Part shown: positions 31,375 to 56,907 of the stretch, piece after piece | Position numbering within the stretch: position 1 is the stretch's first letter | Layout: every line of letters begins with the position of its first letter | Origin: Halostagnicola larsenii XH-48 | GTDB taxonomy: Archaea > Halobacteriota > Halobacteria > Halobacteriales > Natrialbaceae | Length of the DNA stretch: 64,000 bases | Direction: 5' to 3' | Assembly: GCF_000517625.1 (NCBI RefSeq) | Contig: NZ_CP007059.1 | Span: 62,001-126,000, forward strand | The notes under the pieces: generated by a model | Told to the model about the DNA's origin: nothing | What the model saw: only the letters and a program-made list of their open reading frames with translations | Databases searched by the model: none | Translations under genes and position numbers: made by a program

Positions 31375-31758
31375 CATGGCCATTGCCCACCGTCTCGAGA
31401 ATAAAGACTGCGCCTGTGTGTGCAACTGTCGCCGGGATCCAGCCCTCCAGTCCGACGGTCCTCCGGCGCTCGTTACAGATCCACGATTTAAGCGGTTTGA
31501 ACTGTTTGCAAATTGTAAAAAGTGTACACGGTGTGTACGGCTTGGAGTACTACTCCATCCGATCGGAGGCGGCTTGCGAGTGCAATACGGATCAACGGCT
31601 CTGTTGAGATCATCAGCGGCTAACAAATTTTGAGGGGATCGGTAAGTACAGGGGGCACAAAGATCGTTCGTAATCGGAGAATCAAATCCTGATACAGAGA
31701 GAAGGTGGAGAGAGGCACCACACCTTTTCCGGCTGACCGGCGAAGTACCAATCAACGA
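31375..31758. promoter_or_regulatory. Divergent promoter region with one copy of the palindromic site
   Basis: This gap between the DJ-1 gene (minus) and the membrane-protein gene (plus) is AT-rich from ~31490. At 31510-31540 it contains AAATTGTAAAAAGTGTACAC then GGTGTGTAC, which is the same type of GTGT/ACAC half-sites that cluster near the ParA gene. No gene was found. Confidence 0.5.
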
Positions 31759-40766: not shown

Positions 40767-41259
40767 ACGAACTCGAGGGAGACCCAACGATATCGACGAC
40801 CGATTCGAGGATCGAAAGCGGCCACGTCGGCGCACACGATTTTTTCGGACACGACCGAGAGATGGAAGGGGGGTTCGCTCCTCGAGTCGAGTAGGATGGG
40901 TTTTCTTCACGGCGAACAGTGGATACAGTCGAACGTGTCGTTAGGCAAAATGAATCATATATCGCGATATGATTGTCAAGCTCGTCACGGTAAATCAGAA
41001 GTTCGCTCGGAATTCTCGGGTGCTGAGTACTCGAGTGGAATTATCGGCTTTGCCAAACTCTGAGGCCGCATCGGATTACCCTTCTTCGTCCGACATCCGT
41101 AGCTACAACGCAGAAACGAAGGAAGTGCTTTCTCGAGCGTTTTCGAGGCGGGGAGACCAGTTCCCAGCGACAGTTCGCGTGAGAGGCGCGCCGTTGCAGG
41201 TGCACGCCCAACAGCCAAGGGAGACAGTAGCGGTTACAAGACCGAGGCTCGGTATCGAT
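40767..41259. other. Intergenic region without a confident gene
   Basis: It includes the inverted repeat at 40953-40974. A frame from GTG 40969 joins the downstream gene, but its N-terminal ~97 codons look non-coding (no helical or strand pattern, mixed composition), so I do not extend the gene into it. It may hold a decayed regulator. Confidence 0.4.
40953..40974. promoter_or_regulatory. 8-bp inverted repeat, possible operator
   Basis: AATCATAT, six-base spacer ATCGCG, ATATGATT. The arms are perfect. The site is AT-rich in a GC-rich region and sits between the DUF892 gene and the SRPBCC gene. It suits a dimeric winged-helix or HTH protein; no adjacent regulator is known. Confidence 0.4.
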
Positions 41260-42156
41260 ATGTCACTCAAAGCTGCCTTCGAAACCGGCGAAAATGACGC
41301 GACGCTCGATTCCGCGAGTACAGCCACTCAGTGGAAGCGGATTGCATCCACCATAATCGGTGGCGGTCTCGTAGTTATCGGGCTCAAGAAACGCTCGATA
41401 AGCGGATCGGTCGCCACGATTGCTGGCGGGTGGCTCCTCTATCGAGGACTCACCGGAAACAAACGTACTACGTCGAAACGCGAAACCAGCGTTGTGAGGG
41501 ATTCTGCAGACGCCATCGAGACCGAGGGCGACTCCGAAATCGGAATAGACTCCGACACCGACGCTGACGCCGACACGACTCCCGACCGCGTTCTGGATTC
41601 GGCGACCGGAGGCGGTTCTAGCTCTATCGCTGCTCGAATTCGATCCAAAATGAACACGGACCCGCCACGAGTCGAACGCTCGATTACGGTGGGAAAATCA
41701 CCCGAGGAACTCTACGAACTGTGGCTCGAGCCGGGAACGATAGAACAGCTCATGGGCCAGGAAGACGGGATGGTGGCGGTGAACGCGGACGACGGACGCT
41801 GGGAGTGGACGGTTTCCGGCCCCCTCGAGGGGGTGCTCACGTGGGAAACCGAACTCATCGAGGAAGAACCCAACGAGTCCCTGCGCTGGGAATCCGTCAA
41901 CGGCGATCGCGTCTCGGTCGACGGAACGGTCGAGTTTCGGCCCGCACCGGCCGATCGGGGCACGGAAGTGACGCTCCGGCTGGAAGTCGACCATCCCGGC
42001 GGTTCGCTCGGTAACGGAGTCCTCAACGGGATCGGCATCGTTCCGCGAATGCTCGAGAGCAAGGCGCTCAACCGCTTCAAGAGTCTCGCCGAGACAGGAG
42101 AGATACCGTCGCTCGAGACCAACCCGTCCGGTCGAGGAACGGGAGACCTGCTGTGA
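41260..42156 (+). CDS. SRPBCC-fold (START/Bet v1-like) protein with N-terminal membrane segment
   Basis: A 298-residue protein from ATG 41260 (MSLKAAFETGENDA). Residues ~28-60 form a short membrane segment pair like YgaP/DUF2892 (IASTIIGGGLVVIGL, VATIAGGWLLYRGLTG). After an acidic linker comes an SRPBCC domain: VERSITVGKSPEELYELWLE, GRWEWTVSGPLEGVLTWETE and GTVEFRPAPADRGTEVTLRL, with a hydrophobic ligand cavity expected. Fusions of these two units occur in several bacteria. Ligand unknown. It converges with the wHTH gene at 42581. Confidence 0.85.
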   Translation: MSLKAAFETGENDATLDSASTATQWKRIASTIIGGGLVVIGLKKRSISGSVATIAGGWLLYRGLTGNKRTTSKRETSVVRDSADAIETEGDSEIGIDSDTDADADTTPDRVLDSATGGGSSSIAARIRSKMNTDPPRVERSITVGKSPEELYELWLEPGTIEQLMGQEDGMVAVNADDGRWEWTVSGPLEGVLTWETELIEEEPNESLRWESVNGDRVSVDGTVEFRPAPADRGTEVTLRLEVDHPGGSLGNGVLNGIGIVPRMLESKALNRFKSLAETGEIPSLETNPSGRGTGDLL

Positions 42157-42254
42157 AGTCCGAAGCGACGAGCCGCTCCGATGGAAATTCCTCGTGAAAA
42201 AGCGTCAGGTCGAAAGACGAAACAGGCCTACGGCGACGCCGATAGGATTTCGAA

Positions 42255-42340
42255 AGTGTAGACGGTTCACACATCGTGCTGTCGGACAGTGTAGACAGTT
42301 CACACATCGTGCTGTCGGACAGTGTAGACAGTTCACACAG
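42255..42340. repeat. 33-bp tandem repeat carrying palindromic half-sites (cluster A)
   Basis: Two full 33-bp units and a partial third (42255-42287, 42288-42320, 42321-42340). Each unit begins AGTGTAGAC(A/G)GTTCACACA and continues CGTGCTGTCGGAC. GTGTAGAC and GTTCACAC are inverted halves with 6 of 8 matching bases. The third unit passes into TTCACACAGTGTAAA, the near-palindrome also found at 51680-51694. The repeat lies between two convergent genes. Confidence 0.85.
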
Positions 42341-42473
42341 TGTAAAGTAGTCCGGTAGAAGTTACACTCGGACAAGTGGACCGAGTACTAAAACGGACCA
42401 AAACATCGAATAAATGTGTTTTCCAACGATATAGGGTGAGAAGGGAAACGAGGCCATTGAACCGTATAGGCAT

Positions 42474-42507
42474 TGTAAACAGTGTACACAGTGTACACAT
42501 TCTACAC
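42474..42507. repeat. Direct and inverted GTGTACAC sites (cluster A, second part)
   Basis: TGTAAACAGTGTACACAGTG then TACACATTCTACAC. It contains GTGTACAC-A-GTGTACAC, a 17-bp palindrome at 42482-42498, plus flanking TGTAAAC and TTCTACAC half-sites. It sits 74 bp from the stop of the wHTH gene at 42581. Confidence 0.8.
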
Positions 42508-42580
42508 CGTTTGGTAGTTCAAATTACAACACAATGGACCAGACAAACAGCCCCTCGACTCCCGGGAACTGCGATCGGAC

Positions 42581-43513
42581 TCACTCACCCAAACCGTCTG
42601 ACTCGAGTGCGGACTCGTACTTCCAGCCGATTTCGGCATCCGTTTTCTCGTCTCGTTCGATACCGGGGAGGTCGTCGAAAACGTCCGAAAGCCAGGCGAC
42701 CCACGCGTCACTCGAGTCGTACTCTGCCGGGTAGTCCGCATAGACGCGCTCGGCCAGTTCGAAAGCGGTCGCCGTCCCCTGATCGAAGAGGACGCCGAAC
42801 GCAACGCGAGCAGCCGTGCGTTCGGCATCGCTCTCCGTTCGATTCTCGAGGCCGTGGCGAACGCTGCCGAACGGTTCGGGATCCGACTCCGGCGCGTCCC
42901 GCCCGTCTTCGTCCTCGAGCCGTTCGATGACGGGAGTGCGTTCGTACATCCACAATTCCGCAATCGGCGCCGAACACTCGTCCGAAGCGGACGAATTCGG
43001 TTGTGAGGAGGGAGCGCTCGAGACAGTCGCGTCGGGATCCGGAGGGGTGACCAGCGGGAGTTCCCGAAGGCTGTCTTCGAGACAGGTTGCCCACCACTGC
43101 TCCGGCGTTTCGTAACCCGCCGGCGATTCGCTGTAACAGCCGTCGACGAGTTCGGCGGTCGTCGCGTTGCCCCAGTACGCAAGAAACGAGAACGCGGTTC
43201 GGACTGCCTGCGCTTCGTCCGGTGTCAGTGAGAGCCCCTCGATCGATCGTTCGACCGGTGGTGGGATGTCGATGCGATTGTCGCGCGCGCCGAATGGTGT
43301 GGCTCGCAAGAGCCGACGGCCGTTGTCGGTCAGTTCGTACTCGTCGCCGTTTACCTTCCGAACCAGCGCGTTATCGATCAGTTGTGCCAGATGGGACTCG
43401 AGCGTCTCCTGAGACGTATCGAACGTCGCCTCGAGCGTGTCGAACGTTACGGTTTCCTCCTCGAGCGTCTCGAGGATGGCCCGCCCGAGGGCATCGAGCG
43501 TATTCGAACTCAC
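42581..43513 (-). CDS. Winged-helix protein with duplicated C-terminal domain
   Basis: A 310-residue protein. Residues ~4-70 form a winged helix (LGRAILETLEEETVTFDTLE, then a LTDNGRRLL end). The rest contains two similar ~54-residue segments, at residues 101-154 and 230-284, each with a hydrophobic helix, a TA-ELV/TAFELAE helix and a (E/D)xWxxWLxD or EQWWATCLEDSL end. Each is followed by a similar AEL/IxWxYE motif (ELWMYER, EIGWKYES). So it is an internal duplication. I know no named family for it. It may be a DNA-binding regulator. Cluster A repeats lie just downstream of its stop. Confidence 0.75.
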   Translation of the reverse strand: MSSNTLDALGRAILETLEEETVTFDTLEATFDTSQETLESHLAQLIDNALVRKVNGDEYELTDNGRRLLRATPFGARDNRIDIPPPVERSIEGLSLTPDEAQAVRTAFSFLAYWGNATTAELVDGCYSESPAGYETPEQWWATCLEDSLRELPLVTPPDPDATVSSAPSSQPNSSASDECSAPIAELWMYERTPVIERLEDEDGRDAPESDPEPFGSVRHGLENRTESDAERTAARVAFGVLFDQGTATAFELAERVYADYPAEYDSSDAWVAWLSDVFDDLPGIERDEKTDAEIGWKYESALESDGLGE

Positions 43514-49875: not shown

Positions 49876-50250
49876 CTACTCGTCGTCAGACTCGCCACGG
49901 GCAGCGAGAAGTTCGTCGATCAGCCCATCCGTATCGTCGGCCGCGAGCCGAAAGGCCGCGTCGTAGAACTCTCGGCCCGTCAAGTTTCGCACGTCGTGTT
50001 CGGTTCGTAACTGTGCATCGACGAGTGCGCGAGCATCCTCGAGATCGTCTATCGTTTCGGGCCGCACGTAGACCGTTTTCTTCGTCGTATCGTCAAACGG
50101 AAACGCCGCCGGCTCCGAATCAGACACACTCTCCTCGCGTTCGAGTTCGTCGGTGTCCGACTCACTCGTCGTCTCCTCGACCGATTCAGGTTCCGGCTCC
50201 TCGTCCTCGACGGCGCTTCCCAGACCAGCGAACCGATTATCATCAGGCAC
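49876..50250 (-). CDS. Small DNA-binding partner of ParA (ribbon-helix-helix-like)
   Basis: A 124-residue protein from GTG 50250 (VPDDNRFAGLG). It overlaps the ParA stop by 8 bp, so the two are one operon. The N-terminal ~55 residues are acidic and disordered. The C-terminal ~70 residues read KKTVYVRPETIDDLEDARAL then LRTEHDVRNLTGREFYDAAF, a strand followed by helices as in CopG/RHH proteins. Haloarchaeal ParA genes are commonly followed by such a protein rather than by a ParB with a classical HTH. It is the best candidate to bind the repeated sites upstream. Confidence 0.75.
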   Translation of the reverse strand: MPDDNRFAGLGSAVEDEEPEPESVEETTSESDTDELEREESVSDSEPAAFPFDDTTKKTVYVRPETIDDLEDARALVDAQLRTEHDVRNLTGREFYDAAFRLAADDTDGLIDELLAARGESDDE

Positions 50251-51070
50251 CGAGGACACCTCCGCGTTCGACGACCGCCGCAAGCGCATCCAGCCGCTCG
50301 AGCATGTCACTCTCCGGATCGTACTCCGCGAGCGGGACCCCTTCACGCCATGCACGCCGGAACGCGATGCGTTCGCGAATTCCCGGTCCGGGCGAATCCG
50401 GATCGTCGAAGTGATCGGTGCGAGCGAACTCGGGGAGATACTTCCCGAACTCCGACTCCTCGAGGTTGCCGATAATACGCTTTTCCTCGTTGTCCCCGGA
50501 GAGCGCGTTCGGTACGATGGCCATGATATCGAGGTCGATCTCCTTTCTGATCGGCGTGATCTGCTGGGTGTACATGCGCTCGAACCCGCTGACGCTCGGT
50601 TCGCTCATCCGGAGCGGTACGATCACGTTCTGCGTCGAGATCAGTGATGCATCCGCGAGCGGACCCAGATTCGGCGGCGAATCGACGACGACGTAATCGT
50701 ACGTGTCCTCGAGGACGGGATCGATGATCTCGTTTCTGATCCAGAGCTCGCCGAACGTCGCGCTCCGAATGCTGTTTTCGACGCTATCTAAGTCCTCGTT
50801 GGCCGGGAGCACGTCGAACGAGCCGGCCTCCCGGATAACGTCTCCGAGCGTCGTCTCGGAACTGTCCTCGAGAACGTGTCCGATGTGGACATCGTTTTGG
50901 TAGGCATCGGCGAGGCCGACACCTTCCGTCGCGTTTCCTTGCTGGTCGAGGTCGACCAGCAAGACGTCGTTCGATCGATTTGCGAGCCGTTCTGCGAGAT
51001 TGATCGCAACCGTCGTCTTGCCGACGCCGCCTTTTTGCAAAGCGACGCTTACGGCGCGTTGGTCACTCAT
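50243..51070 (-). CDS. ParA/Soj-family DNA segregation ATPase
   Basis: A 275-residue protein from ATG 51070 (MSDQRAVSVALQKG); a start at 51100 adds ten residues. The deviant Walker A is KGGVGKTT (residues 13-20), with the signature Lys of ParA-type ATPases. Switch I is LLVDLDQQGNATEG, and Walker B/switch II is VVVDSPPNLGPLADASLIS. No N-terminal HTH is present, so a separate protein must read the DNA. It likely forms ATP-dependent dimers on nonspecific DNA and drives movement of partner-bound sites. Confidence 0.93.
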   Translation of the reverse strand: MSDQRAVSVALQKGGVGKTTVAINLAERLANRSNDVLLVDLDQQGNATEGVGLADAYQNDVHIGHVLEDSSETTLGDVIREAGSFDVLPANEDLDSVENSIRSATFGELWIRNEIIDPVLEDTYDYVVVDSPPNLGPLADASLISTQNVIVPLRMSEPSVSGFERMYTQQITPIRKEIDLDIMAIVPNALSGDNEEKRIIGNLEESEFGKYLPEFARTDHFDDPDSPGPGIRERIAFRRAWREGVPLAEYDPESDMLERLDALAAVVERGGVLGA

Positions 51071-51120
51071 ATTGGTTAACACCTCGTTCGCCGTCTCCAC
51101 CGTCGAGGCCGTTTTGGCAG

Positions 51121-52003
51121 TTCACACGGCTCGAGCCTTGTAGAAGGTTCACACATTGTAGACGTTCTACAAAGTTTGCGCGTTGCGGACTGCGGAGTGT
51201 ATGGGTGGGGCGGGTGTCTGAACGACACACCATCGATGAACAGCGAAAATCGATCGTCCAGAGGAAACGGTTCCAAATTCGAGCGAACCGCCTACCCCAC
51301 ATCGCTGACAGCCCATAACGTCTAAGCTTTTTACACAGTGTAGAAGGCCTACGCCGTGCAAACTGTGTACACAGTTTATAGGTTCGGAGTTGGGGCAGTA
51401 GCGCGATAATTATCCAAAGAATAGCCTGTAGAGCGGCTATACCTTTGTTCAAGCACGAACGCCGTGTACACAGTGTGGACATTGTATCCTAGTACTCGAG
51501 CGACACCGCGAGCCGGGTCCAGTGGAAACGTCGAATGACAGCAGAATCGTCACAGTGAGATGACTTAACACTGCCGGAAACGTTCACACAGTATACAGCG
51601 TTTTAGATGTTTACACATTGTACGCTGTCTAGAATAAGACCACAAAAGAGCCGTTCCTTATACGAACACCGGTCGAAAGTTCACACAGTGTAAACCTTGT
51701 GGAAATTCGAGATGGGATAGACAGTACGACATCCAGAACGTGTTCTAACTCGACAGTCCACATCGTCCGCACAGCGAGAACAGTAGAGACGTTCGAGACA
51801 GTTACAACATCGTACGCGTCTTCCGAGGTGCAAACCGTTACCGAAGTTTGAGACGTGAACACATTCTACACTTCGCAAACATTGTAAAATGTCCTCGACG
51901 GAATAGATGTAATTCGAACCGTGCAGCGAGAGGAGTCAATGAAATCGAACACGGAAGATATGGACTGACAAAGTCAAATCCACACAGTGTACAAAGTGTG
52001 AAC
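51121..52003. repeat. Array of dispersed palindromic sites (cluster B), candidate centromere
   Basis: A gene-free ~1.1-kb region (51071-52238) with at least nine related sites at irregular spacing: TTCACAC 51121, composite 51138-51172, TTTACACAGTGTAGA 51330, AAACTGTGTACACAGTTT 51360 (perfect 18-bp palindrome), GTGTACACAGTGTGGACATT 51464, TTCACACAGTATACA 51583, TTTACACATTGTACG 51610, TTCACACAGTGTAAA 51680, GTGAACACATTCTACAC 51855, and TCCACACAGTGTACAAAGTG 51979. The common half-site is T(T/C)(C/T)ACAC and its complement. No coding frame is credible here. Confidence 0.8.
51138..51172. promoter_or_regulatory. Composite palindromic site upstream of the ParA operon
   Basis: TTGTAGAA at 51138-51145 and TTCTACAA at 51165-51172 are a perfect 8-bp inverted repeat. 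Between them TTCACACATTGTAGA is a third, near-palindromic site (51148-51162). The block is 68-102 bp upstream of the ParA ATG. It could be the operator for autoregulation as well as a segregation site. Confidence 0.7.
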
Positions 52004-52238
52004 AGTTCGAGAGCGTCCCCTTGAAGGAATTTGTCTCTGGAACTGGGTGATGAACTCCCGTGACCAACCATCAAATTCTGCCGCGTAACACACACTGTTC
52101 AGGTCTATGAGGACATCCCAAGCACATCACGACCTGCTCTTGCGCAAACTGAGCTACTAGCGAGTGTCTCAAACGATCACTCAAAGCACACAATCAAGAA
52201 GGATTTGTTACTGTTCCCAGATTATTGGTAACTACCAT

Positions 52239-52614
52239 ATGTACGAAGTGCTCGACGACACAACGGCTCAGGTCATCCTCGCTATTGAGAGTGGTGACTC
52301 CATCCGTCGTGTCGCACAGCACATCCATACGCCGTACGAGACGGTGAGACCAGCCGTCAACCGGCTCGAGGATGCAGGTTTGTCCGCTATAATAACGGAC
52401 TTTCGGTCGCCGACGACCGCTGCAGATCGTCCTCGACCCTCGGCCGACGCTCGAAATCGAGCATGTCGAAGGCTACCCGGTAATCTCGAGAACGATCGAA
52501 TATATGCGCGAGCACTACGCCCAGTTCCAGTCAGCGCTGGCGATGCTCGAGCGAATGTACGACGACCTTGACCTCGGTGTCGCCTATCGGGAGACAGAAC
52601 GGGCGCAAACATGA
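52239..52614 (+). pseudogene. Frameshifted winged-helix regulator gene
   Basis: From ATG 52239 the frame gives MYEVLDDTTAQVILAIESGD and a wHTH ending VNRLEDAG. It then continues in another frame as FVRYNNGLSVADDR, and the 3' part is in a third arrangement: IVLDPRPTLEIEHVEGYPVI, ISRTIEYMREHYAQF and LAMLERMYDDLDLGVAYRET, stopping at TGA 52614. Intact haloarchaeal proteins of this type have all parts in one frame with ~60 more residues between. So it is a decayed gene with at least two lesions and a deletion. Its promoter side faces cluster B. Confidence 0.7.
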
Positions 52615-52729
52615 GTTTCCACAACCGGAGTGATTTCGGGACAACAGCTGTCTCGACGCAAACACTCACAGCCCTCTAAGAGTATCTGTCTGAACAAGCT
52701 GATCAACTGGGTTGACAACGGTTAGGAGG

Positions 52730-52780
52730 TTTACACATTGTACAATGTGTACAAAGTGTAGACTTCGTATACAGTGTGCG
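52730..52780. repeat. Palindromic site cluster C in a convergent gap
   Basis: TTTACACATTGTACAATGTG then TACAAAGTGTAGAC (52730-52763), and GTATACAGTGTGCG (52767-52780). These are the same half-sites as in cluster B. They lie between the decayed regulator (ends 52614, plus strand) and the TRIC-like gene (ends 52895, minus strand), so no promoter is expected there. Confidence 0.75.
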
Positions 52781-52894
52781 AATTGAGCGTGGAGTTCGTG
52801 CGAGATCCGATCGCAAAATATGATGCGCTAGATGAAATCGGTCCGCCGTCTGGGATAGCTCGCTCCAACAAAACTCTCAGACGGAGAAACTAAT

Positions 52895-53551
52895 TCAGTG
52901 GTTAAGTAGCCCCAAACCCTGCACGGTGGGGAGATTCCAGTCGTAAGTAACCGCGACTAACCGAGTCACGACAGTAACAACTGCACACACTCCGGCAGCG
53001 GTACTTCCGGATGCTCCTACGGTGCCTGCGATAACGTATGCACCCGCGCCGAACACTGCACAACTCGCGTAGAAATCGTCAAAGAGGATAAACGGAGACT
53101 TGTCGAGAAGGATATCTGCAAACGCGCCACCGCCCACCGCATTGATCGTTCCGATGGCGACGACGCCGAATGCCGAAACGCCCGCCTCCGTTGCGACGAT
53201 AGCACCAGTCGTCGTAAAAGCGGCGAGGCCGATAGCATCCGAGACGAGCGTGATCGGATGGGTATCCGGAGACGGCAAGACGACGCTCAATGCGATCGCT
53301 AGGCTAACGCCGAGTAATCCCAAACCGATTTCGATCGGGGACTGAAGCGCTAATGGTACTCGAGTCACGAGGAGGTCCCGCGTCGCCCCACCGGCAAACG
53401 CCATTGCCAGTCCAACGATAGTAATTCCGAATACGTCGAACTCCTCACGGATCGCCTTCGATGATCCGACGAGTGCGAACGCGACCAGGCCGATCGTGTT
53501 CATAACAGCAAATGGGTCCCCGAATAATACTGTGATGAGATCCTGACTCAC
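52895..53551 (-). CDS. TRIC/UPF0126 family membrane channel
   Basis: A 218-residue protein with seven helices arranged as two similar triple-helix repeats. VAFALVGSSKAIREEFDVFGI and VGLAMAFAGGATRDLLV are repeat 1; LAAFTTTGAIVATEAGVSAF and IGTINAVGGGAFADILLDKS are repeat 2, with the GGG bends that line the pore. Bacterial and archaeal homologues are trimeric K+ channels; some annotate this family as glycine transporters. The single gene suggests potassium or cation homeostasis. Confidence 0.9.
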   Translation of the reverse strand: MSQDLITVLFGDPFAVMNTIGLVAFALVGSSKAIREEFDVFGITIVGLAMAFAGGATRDLLVTRVPLALQSPIEIGLGLLGVSLAIALSVVLPSPDTHPITLVSDAIGLAAFTTTGAIVATEAGVSAFGVVAIGTINAVGGGAFADILLDKSPFILFDDFYASCAVFGAGAYVIAGTVGASGSTAAGVCAVVTVVTRLVAVTYDWNLPTVQGLGLLNH

Positions 53552-53843
53552 TGGTGGGGGCTACGAGAGCAGTTCTCTTGAGTGCTACGTATGCGATGCT
53601 CTCTTCGCGATCCACCTGGACCGTAACACAGGCGATCGCTATATGATCCGGATTGACTGTTGCCAATCCGCGTCTCTTCCGGCATCACCTCTCGACAGGC
53701 TCTTTGAGCCGATATGGGATCAAGGCACACCAACAACGTATCAATTTACGAATTGGTTGTGTGTCTCGAGGCGAATATTCAAGGGTCCGTGACAGAAGTG
53801 TACAGGTAATGAACGAGGCGCGCGCGAATGGGGGTGGCCTGCA

Positions 53844-55499
53844 GTGAGTGACGAGCGTGAGGTCGTCGTCGGCGAAGCGTCGGACGGAACCGACGTCACG
53901 ATTCCCGTCGTCGAACTGCTGACCGGACGGGGGTTCGTGACCGGAAAATCAGGGAGCGGAAAATCGAACACGGCATCGGTGATCGCCGAGGAACTCCTCG
54001 AAGCCGGGTTCCCGCTGTTGATCGTCGATACCGACGGCGAGTACTACGGTCTCAAAGAGGAGTACGAGATGCTTCACGCCGGTGCGGACGAAGAGTGTGA
54101 CATCCAGATCGGACCCGAACACGCAGAGCAGATGGCGACGCTCGCACTCGAGGAGAACGTTCCCGTAATCCTCGACGTGTCGGGATATCTCGACGAGGAG
54201 GTCGCCAACGAACTCCTCCGTGAGACGGCGCGGCAACTGTTCGTAAAGGAAAAGAAGCTCAAAAAACCGTTCTTGCTGGTCGTCGAGGAGGTCCACGAGT
54301 ACATTCCCGAGGGCGGGGGTATGGACGAGACCGGAAAGTTGCTGATCAAGATCGGCAAGCGCGGCCGAAAGCACGGCCTGGGCATCCTGGGTATCAGCCA
54401 GCGACCCGCAGACGTCAAGAAAGATTTCATCACGCAGGCGAACTGGCTCGTCTGGCACCGACTAACCTGGGAGAACGACACCAAGGTCGTCGGCCGGATT
54501 ATCGACAGCGAGTACTCCGAACTCGTTTCGGAACTCGGCGACGGACAGGCCTACGTCCAGACCGACTGGAACGACGTGGACGTTCGAAAGATCCAGTTCC
54601 GACGCAAGCGGACGTTCGACGCCGGCGCGACGCCGGGTCTGGACGATTTCGAGCGCCCGGAACTCAAATCGGTCTCCGATGCACTCGTCGGCGACCTTCA
54701 GAAAATTTCCGAGCGAAAGCAACGCGAGGAGAGCCGGATCGAAGAACTCGAGCGCAACCTCGAGAAGCGCGGGGACCGAATCGAAGAACTCGAAGAGGAA
54801 CTGAGAAACGCACGGGACATCTCGAGCGTTGCCCAACAGATGGCCGAGGCGTTACAAAATCCGGATAGCGTCCAGACCGAACTCCCGCAGTCGAACGACG
54901 AAATTCGACGGCTGCACGACGAACTCGTCGAACTCGAGACCAAACACGAAGAACTCGAGGCGGAACTCGAAGAGAAAGATCACGTTATCGACATCCTCCA
55001 GGACAAACTCGAGGCCCAGCGCGGCAGAACGGAAAATCTCGCCAAGCGAAATCGTGCACTCAAAGACCGGATCGACGAAATCGAGGGGGGCGAGGGCGAA
55101 CAGACGATCGTCCAGGCAGACGCAGATGACTTCGAATTCGGTTACACAGACGTAACAGAGGGGCTTACGGTCGCGGATTCCCAGATTATCGTCGCGGACG
55201 AACAGCAGAACGTCGACGAGCTGCTCGAGACGACGCCGATCGACGACCGTCTCAGCGCCGCCTGCGATCAGTCCCGGTGTTCGCTCGAGACGAGTCGGAT
55301 GGTCATCAAAACGCTCGCCCAGGCCGGTCCGTTGACCACTATCGAAGTGGCCAGCCGCGTCGACCGGTCCACCGTCGCGGTACAGAGCCTGCTTTCGGAA
55401 CTCAGGACCCAGGGTGTCGTCGGTCGACCCTCCGAACGAACGTACCAACTCGAATCCGACATTCTCGAGGCGCTAAAAGCGACGGCAAAAGAGGAGTAG
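53844..55499 (+). CDS. HerA/FtsK-like ATPase with coiled coil and winged helix
   Basis: A 551-residue protein from GTG 53844. The DUF87/HerA ATPase core is residues ~20-260: Walker A GFVTGKSGSGKSNTASVIAE, Walker B LLVVEEVHEYIPEG, and sensor ILGISQRPADVKKDFITQ. Residues ~290-440 are a long acidic coiled coil (KISERKQREESRIEELERNL then ELEAELEEKDHVIDILQDKL). The C-terminus (~480-551) is a winged helix (IEVASRVDRSTVAVQSLLSE). HerA usually works with the NurA nuclease in end resection, but no NurA gene is adjacent. The protein may pump or process DNA. Confidence 0.88.
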   Translation: MSDEREVVVGEASDGTDVTIPVVELLTGRGFVTGKSGSGKSNTASVIAEELLEAGFPLLIVDTDGEYYGLKEEYEMLHAGADEECDIQIGPEHAEQMATLALEENVPVILDVSGYLDEEVANELLRETARQLFVKEKKLKKPFLLVVEEVHEYIPEGGGMDETGKLLIKIGKRGRKHGLGILGISQRPADVKKDFITQANWLVWHRLTWENDTKVVGRIIDSEYSELVSELGDGQAYVQTDWNDVDVRKIQFRRKRTFDAGATPGLDDFERPELKSVSDALVGDLQKISERKQREESRIEELERNLEKRGDRIEELEEELRNARDISSVAQQMAEALQNPDSVQTELPQSNDEIRRLHDELVELETKHEELEAELEEKDHVIDILQDKLEAQRGRTENLAKRNRALKDRIDEIEGGEGEQTIVQADADDFEFGYTDVTEGLTVADSQIIVADEQQNVDELLETTPIDDRLSAACDQSRCSLETSRMVIKTLAQAGPLTTIEVASRVDRSTVAVQSLLSELRTQGVVGRPSERTYQLESDILEALKATAKEE

Positions 55500-55543: not shown

Positions 55544-56682
55544 TCACCAGGTCAGATCGTCTCCGACCGCTTCGATGGCAGCCGGATCGATGTGTTGATG
55601 AACTGGGAGGACGACCGTCGACTTCGAGAGCGTGTTCGACGTTTCGTAGGCCGGATTATCCATGACTGACGCCGAAAGCCGCGGCCAGGTGTGGGCACCG
55701 TCGACGCCCACCTGCTCGAGTTCCCACATGAATTCCGACGGATCCGTGACACGGACCGGAAACACCTGTGGGCAGATTCCGTCGGGCAGCGTGTCGAAAA
55801 CCGGGACGACGTCAGAGCGTGACTCGAGGACGCGCTGCCACGCCGAAAAGTTGGCCCGGCGGCTGGACCGTATCGACTCGGGATCGGCGTCGACGAAAAC
55901 TCGGTGTGCCAGGTTCGACATCTGGGATTTTTCGTTCTCGTAGCGATTTCTCGGTGACGCCGTCACGCGTCCCACGCCGCTGCCGCTGACGAGTGTGTCT
56001 ACCGATTCGCGGAGTCGAGCGTTTCGATCGAACAGTTCGAACGCGATCGATTTTATGAGAAACTGACAATCAGTTGTGTCGAGTCGGTCACGGACGCCTT
56101 CGTACCTGGATGGCGTATACTCCGTGGCGAGACGATCCGAATTGAGGTATAACAACGCGCCGTTCGGAATCGGAAGCTGTTTCCAGAGACTCGTAATTCC
56201 AATATCACCGTAGGTTCCGAGTAACCTGCCGTCGTCCACACTCAACGGTGAGTGAGCGTTGTCGTCGATGTGATAGCACTCGTACTCGCTGGTAATCGAC
56301 GAAATCGTCTCGAGACCGGGCTGGGGAAAACCGAAGTAGTTGACCGAGATGATCGCCGCCGTCTCGGTATCATCGCCGCCGTCTCGGTATCGATTCGACT
56401 CCGAAGGTCGTCCACGTTGGGACCGAGCGATTCTGTGATCGCATAAAATCGAGGCTCGAGGCCGAGTTCGACGATCGGTTCCGCGACGGCGTCGGGGAGG
56501 TACGCCGGGAGGAGGACGTTCTGTCCGGCCGTCGAAATCGTTTTCAGGCCGTCCCGAAGCGCGATCTTACCTGATCCATAAAAAGCGTACGCGGTTACGT
56601 ATTGCTCGAGAAGCGATTCGAAATCCGCGGGTCGGTGACTCGAGAGAGCCCACAGAGACAGCGACGGGGTTGCACTGATCAT
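55544..56682 (-). pseudogene. DegT/DnrJ-type aminotransferase gene broken by a 20-bp duplication
   Basis: The 5' part (from ATG 56682) reads MISATPSLSLWALSSHRPAD to RIDTETAAMI; the 3' part continues from SPLSVDDGRLLGTYGDIGIT. At 56352-56391 a 20-bp sequence is duplicated in tandem. Removing one copy joins the two parts in one frame: ETAAIISVNYFGFPQPGLET, then SITSEYECYHIDDNAHS. The repaired protein has 372 residues. The PLP Lys is in DIGITSLWKQLPIPNGALL. DegT enzymes aminate nucleotide sugars or related keto groups in surface-glycan synthesis. As it stands the gene cannot make a full product. Confidence 0.85.
56352..56391. repeat. Perfect 20-bp tandem duplication causing a frameshift
   Basis: ATCGCCGCCGTCTCGGTATC occurs twice back to back (56352-56371 and 56372-56391). 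Twenty is not a multiple of three, so it shifts the frame of the aminotransferase gene. Loss of one copy restores a 373-codon frame. Confidence 0.97.
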
Positions 56683-56907
56683 AGAGCTGCCTCCGAACGC
56701 TCGGCGAGCAGGTAGCGTCCCACCACGTACGCGGTACTGAACGATCACCACCTTAGTGATGGTGGGAATACCATCTTCGCGAGCGAATCAGGCAGTGCTT
56801 ACTGTCGAATGGTGGAGACGGGACCGGACAGCATCCACAGGAGAAGCCCGTTCCTACGATGACCCAGTCATCGCATAACAAAGCCGAAACCGATCAACTG
56901 CGTGCCT

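Follow-up and report, generated by a model that had tools for sequence, protein, structure and literature searches.

A putative type Ib-like plasmid partition locus with a replicon-specific array of degenerate 9-bp units in Halostagnicola larsenii

Introduction

Type Ib partition systems combine a short ParA and a small centromere-binding protein having a flexible N-terminus with upstream repeats that also cover the promoter (PMC5016525). In the delta/omega system of pSM19035, the ParA motor works with a small ribbon-helix-helix (RHH) centromere-binding protein on contiguous arrays of short repeats placed over promoters, and several separate parS sites are found on one plasmid; one 7-bp repeat is bound per RHH dimer, and activation of the ParA ATPase takes at least four contiguous repeats (PMC9499535). 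The locus described here resembles it in its motor, small partner and contiguous short repeats at several places on one replicon, the RHH nature of the partner and its binding to the repeats being inferences. It departs from pSM19035, in which the heptads are non-palindromic (WATCACW) and the genes are transcribed separately (PMC9499535). Here the units are 9 bp with another consensus, so that the heptad trait is not met; they are palindromic in the clade of our locus, the arrays are longer, the two genes overlap, and the partner has no detectable sequence match.

ParA/ParB of pCXC100 and ParF/ParG of TP228 offer a second comparison, in which parA is followed by a gene for a small protein with a flexible N-terminus and a C-terminal RHH domain (inferred in our case) and the centromere lies upstream of the operon; a further likeness to pCXC100 is the use of direct repeats only (PMC5016525). 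Both are bacterial, however, and their repeat design and proteins are unrelated in sequence to ours as far as tested. The elements of pCXC100 are approximately 9 bp long.

Among archaea, SegAB of the Sulfolobales likewise has a ParA-like protein, an RHH partner encoded downstream (again inferred here) and sites both upstream of the operon and scattered, but it is chromosomal and its sites are isolated 13-bp TCTAGASTCTAGA elements, mostly intragenic (PMC12284271, PMC5120986). That trait is not met by our locus, whose unit is ACnGT or CCTA at a 9-bp period. The ParA-AspA-ParB system of the Sulfolobus plasmid pNOB8 is also an archaeal plasmid partition system; it differs in having three proteins with AspA as the centromere binder (PMC9178275), and no third gene was seen here. 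Among the outstanding questions named by a 2016 review are what serves as centromere on archaeal chromosomes and plasmids and whether such sites occur clustered or dispersed (PMC5120986). No haloarchaeal centromere is described in the open-access literature that we searched, which covered SegAB, the bacterial systems and pNOB8; priority remains uncertain without subscription papers and preprints.

We propose, with a probability of roughly 0.78, that ParA, its partner and the array together form a type Ib partition system of the plasmid, in which binding, segregation and the RHH fold of the partner are inferred. Such a system would give a concrete, sequence-defined answer to the centromere question for haloarchaeal plasmids, a predicted recognition code leading from a partner residue to the array type, and a starting point for sorting haloarchaeal plasmids into compatibility groups and for building stable vectors.

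Results and discussion

The parA operon and its partner gene

The window, which is the whole stretch of 64,000 nucleotides analysed, corresponds to C5:62001-126000 in a haloarchaeal genome of five contigs (C1 to C5) and 4.13 Mb. A sequence-only reading of it had proposed a tripartite segregation locus consisting of a ParA ATPase, a small overlapping RHH-like gene and an irregular array of sites. Both genes were confirmed.

50243-51070, minus strand: parA, encoding a 275-residue Walker-type ParA ATPase (KGGVGKT; Pfam AAA_31, E = 1e-36)
49876-50250, minus strand: partner gene, GTG start, 124 residues, proposed centromere-binding protein

The nearest solved structures of the ParA in the PDB are Soj/ParA, and it matches structures of the Soj/Delta/ParF type. 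With the Walker A motif at the N-terminus of the 275-residue chain and no N-terminal DNA-binding extension, it meets the short-ParA trait of type Ib systems. The GTG start of the partner gene overlaps the parA stop by 8 bp, and overlaps of -8 or -4 bp are typical of the partner family. The partner itself begins with a NRFAGL peptide, continues with an acidic linker and ends with a domain composed of KKTVYVRPE and two predicted helices. A small protein gene directly 3' of parA, whose product has a variable acidic N-terminal region before a conserved C-terminal domain, is a further type Ib trait.

The assignment of the partner to the RHH proteins could be upheld only in part. The strand-helix-helix pattern makes an RHH fold of the C-terminal domain plausible, and this pattern is its only basis; the fold as such found no support, as the partner matched neither the RHH family nor another one significantly and no confident model was obtained. 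Searches of Pfam, NCBIfam and the PDB gave no sequence match, and an hhalign comparison with RHH_1, made against the 11 RHH_1 proteins of the genome, was not significant (probability 0.6%). Single-sequence AF2 models had low confidence (pLDDT 56 and 63), and a fold search with them returned no match. Among the PDB chains, those annotated as SegB gave no hit to the partner profiles at E <= 10, in a profile search without direct SegB alignment. Relatives of the partner were not found in viral contigs.

The region 5' of parA is poor in genes and is followed by a divergent DUF87/HerA-like gene at 53844-55499. From alkaline phosphatase/phosphodiesterase through DegT, DUF87 and the array to parA and the partner, the order agrees with that on plasmids of Haloterrigena, Natronorubrum and Natrononativus. 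The DegT/DnrJ aminotransferase gene (55544-56751, minus strand), which is unbroken in relatives, is present here as two overlapping frames (55544-56245 and 56242-56751), through either a frameshift in the gene or a sequencing error.

A tandem array of degenerate 9-bp units

The related sites noted beside parA are real and more numerous than had been claimed. They amount to approximately 64 units between 51079 and 52777, in an array that is broken by an insertion and leaves only 9 bp to the start codon of parA.

51079-52008, no strand: main array, 57 degenerate 9-bp units with core ACnGT in seven runs, identified with a model from other species, Viterbi decoding and periodicity
52009-52714, no strand: inserted DNA splitting the array, with an HTH-like ORF at 52164-52571 that has only weak HTH matches
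52715-52777, no strand: 7 units at the distal end of the main array, cut off by the inserted DNA, identified by model and decoding

The sites do not form an irregular array, as had been suggested, but runs of 3-16 contiguous units; the run at 52733-52777, for example, reads ACACATTGT ACAATGTGT ACAAAGTGT AGACTTCGT ATACAGTGT. The autocorrelation of the region 5' of parA peaked at lags 9, 18 and 27 with z values of 7.6, 5.9 and 6.2, respectively, and the same peaks were observed in 12 of the 13 relatives tested. The pattern TTYACACANTGTRRA, with up to three mismatches, matched the window 47 times against 8.3 expected, a count reached in none of 100 shuffles. Over the whole window, 99 decoded units fell in runs of at least two, as compared with 5-17 in block-shuffled copies. 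A scan for isolated palindromes by consensus missed the 9-bp register, and a tandem HMM was used instead. Trained on seven Natrialbaceae relatives with the window left out and no symmetry imposed, it learned the palindromic unit AcACnGTnT, whose matrix and its reverse complement are correlated at r = 0.985.

The recurrence of sites at 52.7 kb, also noted earlier, turned out to be the far end of this parA-adjacent array. In G271, a genome of the same genus, the intergenic region is one continuous array, and positions 51628-53765 of the window have no match there. The flanking genes of the two genomes share 80-85% DNA identity, and the array can be aligned over 164 bp only; the array sequence changes fast and the layout stays. 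On the segment absent from G271 (52009-53700), which lies within and beside the array, are the HTH-like ORF, as a fragment, and, at 52895-53551, a gene of the UPF0126/TRIC type.

Partner type and array type

Unit models from different loci form two types, ACnGT-like palindromes and an asymmetric CCTA unit. The C-terminal domain of the partners carries the motif x[T/S/P][VILF]Y[VA]R and, behind it, two predicted helices, and F, Y, R, RE and A are invariant in the aligned set. When each upstream region was scored with both unit models, the array type was found to correlate with one residue in the predicted beta-strand of the partner. All 37 loci with a T/S-type partner had ACnGT arrays; CCTA arrays were found in 24 of the 27 loci with a P-type partner, the other three being unresolved and none showing the opposite combination. 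The four loci with a G-type partner gave one ACnGT array and three undecided cases.

The correlation is not fully independent, because loci that share partner types are related, and it could stem from shared ancestry, but the ParA and partner trees disagree in the informative cases. L191 and L211, each with a P-type partner and a CCTA array, fall in the T/S ParA clade of the window, and L238, whose partner is of the T type and whose array is ACnGT, falls in the P clade. L211 and L238 sit on long branches, which leaves L191 as the cleanest case. The array type follows the partner and not ParA, as binding of the array by the partner would predict. The role of the partner as reader of the sites is thus supported indirectly, by sequence comparison and in the absence of binding data. 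Of the functional type Ib traits, in which the partner binds the repeats, stimulates the ATPase of ParA and stabilises the plasmid, this indirect correlation is the only sign.

Satellite clusters and replicon specificity

The sites extend beyond 50.2-52.8 kb; satellite clusters lie elsewhere in the window.

31481-31543, no strand: satellite cluster of 7 units between divergent genes (a DJ-1/PfpI gene and a hypothetical gene)
42251-42343, no strand: satellite cluster formed by a 33-bp direct repeat with 3 x 3 units, between the same convergent genes as the next cluster
42459-42512, no strand: satellite cluster of 6 contiguous units between the convergent genes 40969-42156 (plus strand) and 42581-43513 (minus strand)

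The two clusters at 42251-42512 hold 15 units in total. The three copies of the 33-bp repeat are each built from 9-bp units, as if the array grew by local duplication. A main array with satellites was found again on pHTUR04, on a Natronorubrum bangense plasmid and in G271.

C3, C4 and C5 were retrieved whole, C2 over positions 1-320 kb and a 14-kb piece, and C1 over 100 kb and a 10-kb piece. With the ACnGT model, built from plasmids of other species without the window, and a three-unit score of at least 15, clusters were called on C5 and once on C4 (136067-136129). The 320 kb scanned on C2 and the 100 kb on C1 had none, and the whole of C3 gave one isolated borderline match. An extended pattern searched over the 4.13-Mb genome had its matches with at most one mismatch only on C5; taken together, the whole-genome pattern searches showed elsewhere only isolated two-mismatch matches and one isolated one-mismatch match. 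A random density genome-wide would have counted against the proposal, and both the model scans and the pattern search exclude it. The paralogous locus on C3 has a P-type partner and a CCTA array adjoining parA (85590-85952 and 86288-86342), together with a remote CCTA cluster at 64869-64922; the CCTA model, from which the C3 locus itself had been left out, found nothing on C4.

No ParA was found on C4 and no match to Orc1/Cdc6 on C5. One nucleotide-sugar dehydrogenase gene is split between the two contigs, with one part at the right end of C4 and the other at the left end of C5, and in Halosolutus the counterparts of the two parts are contiguous but for 6 bp (168447-168692 and 168699-169166). 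ORB-like repeats in opposite orientation, beside orc1, are present at the right end of C5 (C5:130.1-130.9 kb, outside the window) and the left end of C4. Because of the split gene and the shared repeats, C4 and C5 are most simply taken, from these contig ends, as a single replicon of approximately 304 kb with the array some 16 kb from the origin. In G271, a single contig carries the parA locus together with a stretch that has homology to the orc1 end of C4. We had considered the C4 cluster as belonging to a ParA-less plasmid that rides on the system of C5, an idea dropped in view of the contig ends.

Proposed mechanism and alternatives

Then, how might these elements work together? The best reading is that of type Ib-like loci with replicon-specific centromeres and an undescribed partner family as their reader, binding being inferred. 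The ParA ATPase would be the motor, and the product of the overlapping downstream gene would be the centromere-binding protein, whose C-terminal domain, probably RHH, reads the degenerate 9-bp unit. Binding would most simply involve one dimer per unit with cooperativity along the contiguous runs, whose length invites a pSM19035-like reading. The array of ~64 units upstream of parA is most likely the centromere of the plasmid, the main one in this scheme, and the satellites may be secondary binding sites. The conserved N-terminal peptide of the partner (NRFAGL or NPFDDL) probably contacts ParA, which is inferred by analogy only. The spelling of the array, specific to each replicon, would be set by the beta-strand of the partner and would let coexisting plasmids avoid cross-talk. 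Haloarchaea are polyploid, and strict plasmid partition may not be needed in them, which counts against a partition reading.

We also lean, less firmly than towards partition itself, to a broader version of the proposal. The partners would be an undescribed centromere-binding family that tiles degenerate 9-bp arrays, with one beta-strand position switching the code between ACnGT and CCTA and thereby providing orthogonal addresses in one polyploid cell; the satellites would make the centromere a distributed one, and modules of partner plus array would have been exchanged between ParA lineages.

The array probably doubles as an autoregulatory operator, an inference drawn from its distance of 9 bp to the parA start codon. 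That position would also suit an array which is mainly an operator, with the partner acting as a repressor of its own operon and as regulator of parA and a small plasmid regulon marked by the satellites, without any centromere role. The 31.5-kb satellite between divergent genes, the C4 cluster, which precedes a PAS/histidine-kinase gene by ~140 bp, and a pHTUR04 cluster upstream of a bacterio-opsin-activator gene fit such a regulon, and satellites upstream of genes could indeed regulate them. However, ~64 units over 1.7 kb are far above the need of an operator, the clusters track the replicon and not gene function, and the satellites at 42.3 kb and, on the N. bangense plasmid, at 157 kb are flanked by convergent genes, a position that speaks against a role in transcription alone. 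We regard the operator-only explanation as unlikely.

Slightly less likely still is that the array and the satellites serve the partner to condense or bridge plasmid DNA, as in chromosome organisation by SegB, with segregation secondary. SegB is able to compact DNA and to bridge sites that lie far apart (PMC12284271), and some satellites here are tens of kb away; yet there are only about four satellite positions on the ~304 kb, most units lie at parA, and the ParA gene is always adjacent. Iterons of plasmid origins are short direct repeats too, and the Haloferax locus has an orc1/cdc6 gene nearby, so the 9-bp units might be replication iterons. This is less likely again, as the orc1 gene here, at the C4 start/C5 end, has ORB-like inverted repeats of different sequence (TTCACCGGAAACCCGG...) ~16 kb off, and the unit spelling tracks the partner.

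Distribution among haloarchaea

Relatives of the ParA (E <= 1e-40) are encoded in 141 of 292 Halobacteria genomes. A codon-controlled 9-bp periodicity statistic was computed for the 1.5-kb regions upstream of parA. It exceeded the maximum of 238 control blocks in 39/43 loci whose ParA is at least 60% identical, in 25/35 loci below 45% and in 3/12 between. The analysis yielded 76 partner-like ORFs. With duplicates removed, 52 of the 64 distinct haloarchaeal ParA loci with the partner family were above 0.086, as were 3/16 loci where the partner was not found by the search. A contig scan with ParA, dominated by the QKGGVGKT motif, returned almost only bacteria and was reused as a negative control; none of these 77 non-haloarchaeal loci exceeded 0.086. 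In the own genome 4 of 764 blocks did, the C3 array being the top block. Twelve of the 64 partner loci fell below the threshold, nine of which the unit models class as ACnGT or CCTA. A short-repeat centromere candidate upstream of the operon, another type Ib trait, is thus present as 9-bp arrays. The tripartite arrangement of ParA, small putative DNA-binding partner and site array is well supported, without binding data, by the conservation of arrays that adjoin ParA genes at dozens of separate loci in haloarchaea; lack of such conservation in relatives would have refuted it.

An unbiased ranking of periods looked nearly perfect, but coding DNA also raises multiples of 9 (z > 4 in 290/1508 own-genome blocks), and for this reason our conclusions rest on the codon-controlled statistic. 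The same codon effect is what could make the arrays a chance, compositional or coding artefact, which can be set aside since the codon-controlled statistic and the shuffles exclude it and the signal is far above that of control blocks and non-haloarchaeal ParA loci.

Three more 1.5-kb blocks of C3 (312000, 370500 and 406500) were above the 9-bp periodicity threshold. A distant ParA paralogue with 27-31% identity (L004, G000:C2:430730-434545) has an upstream period of 13 bp, not 9 bp, and is possibly part of another repeat-based partition system.
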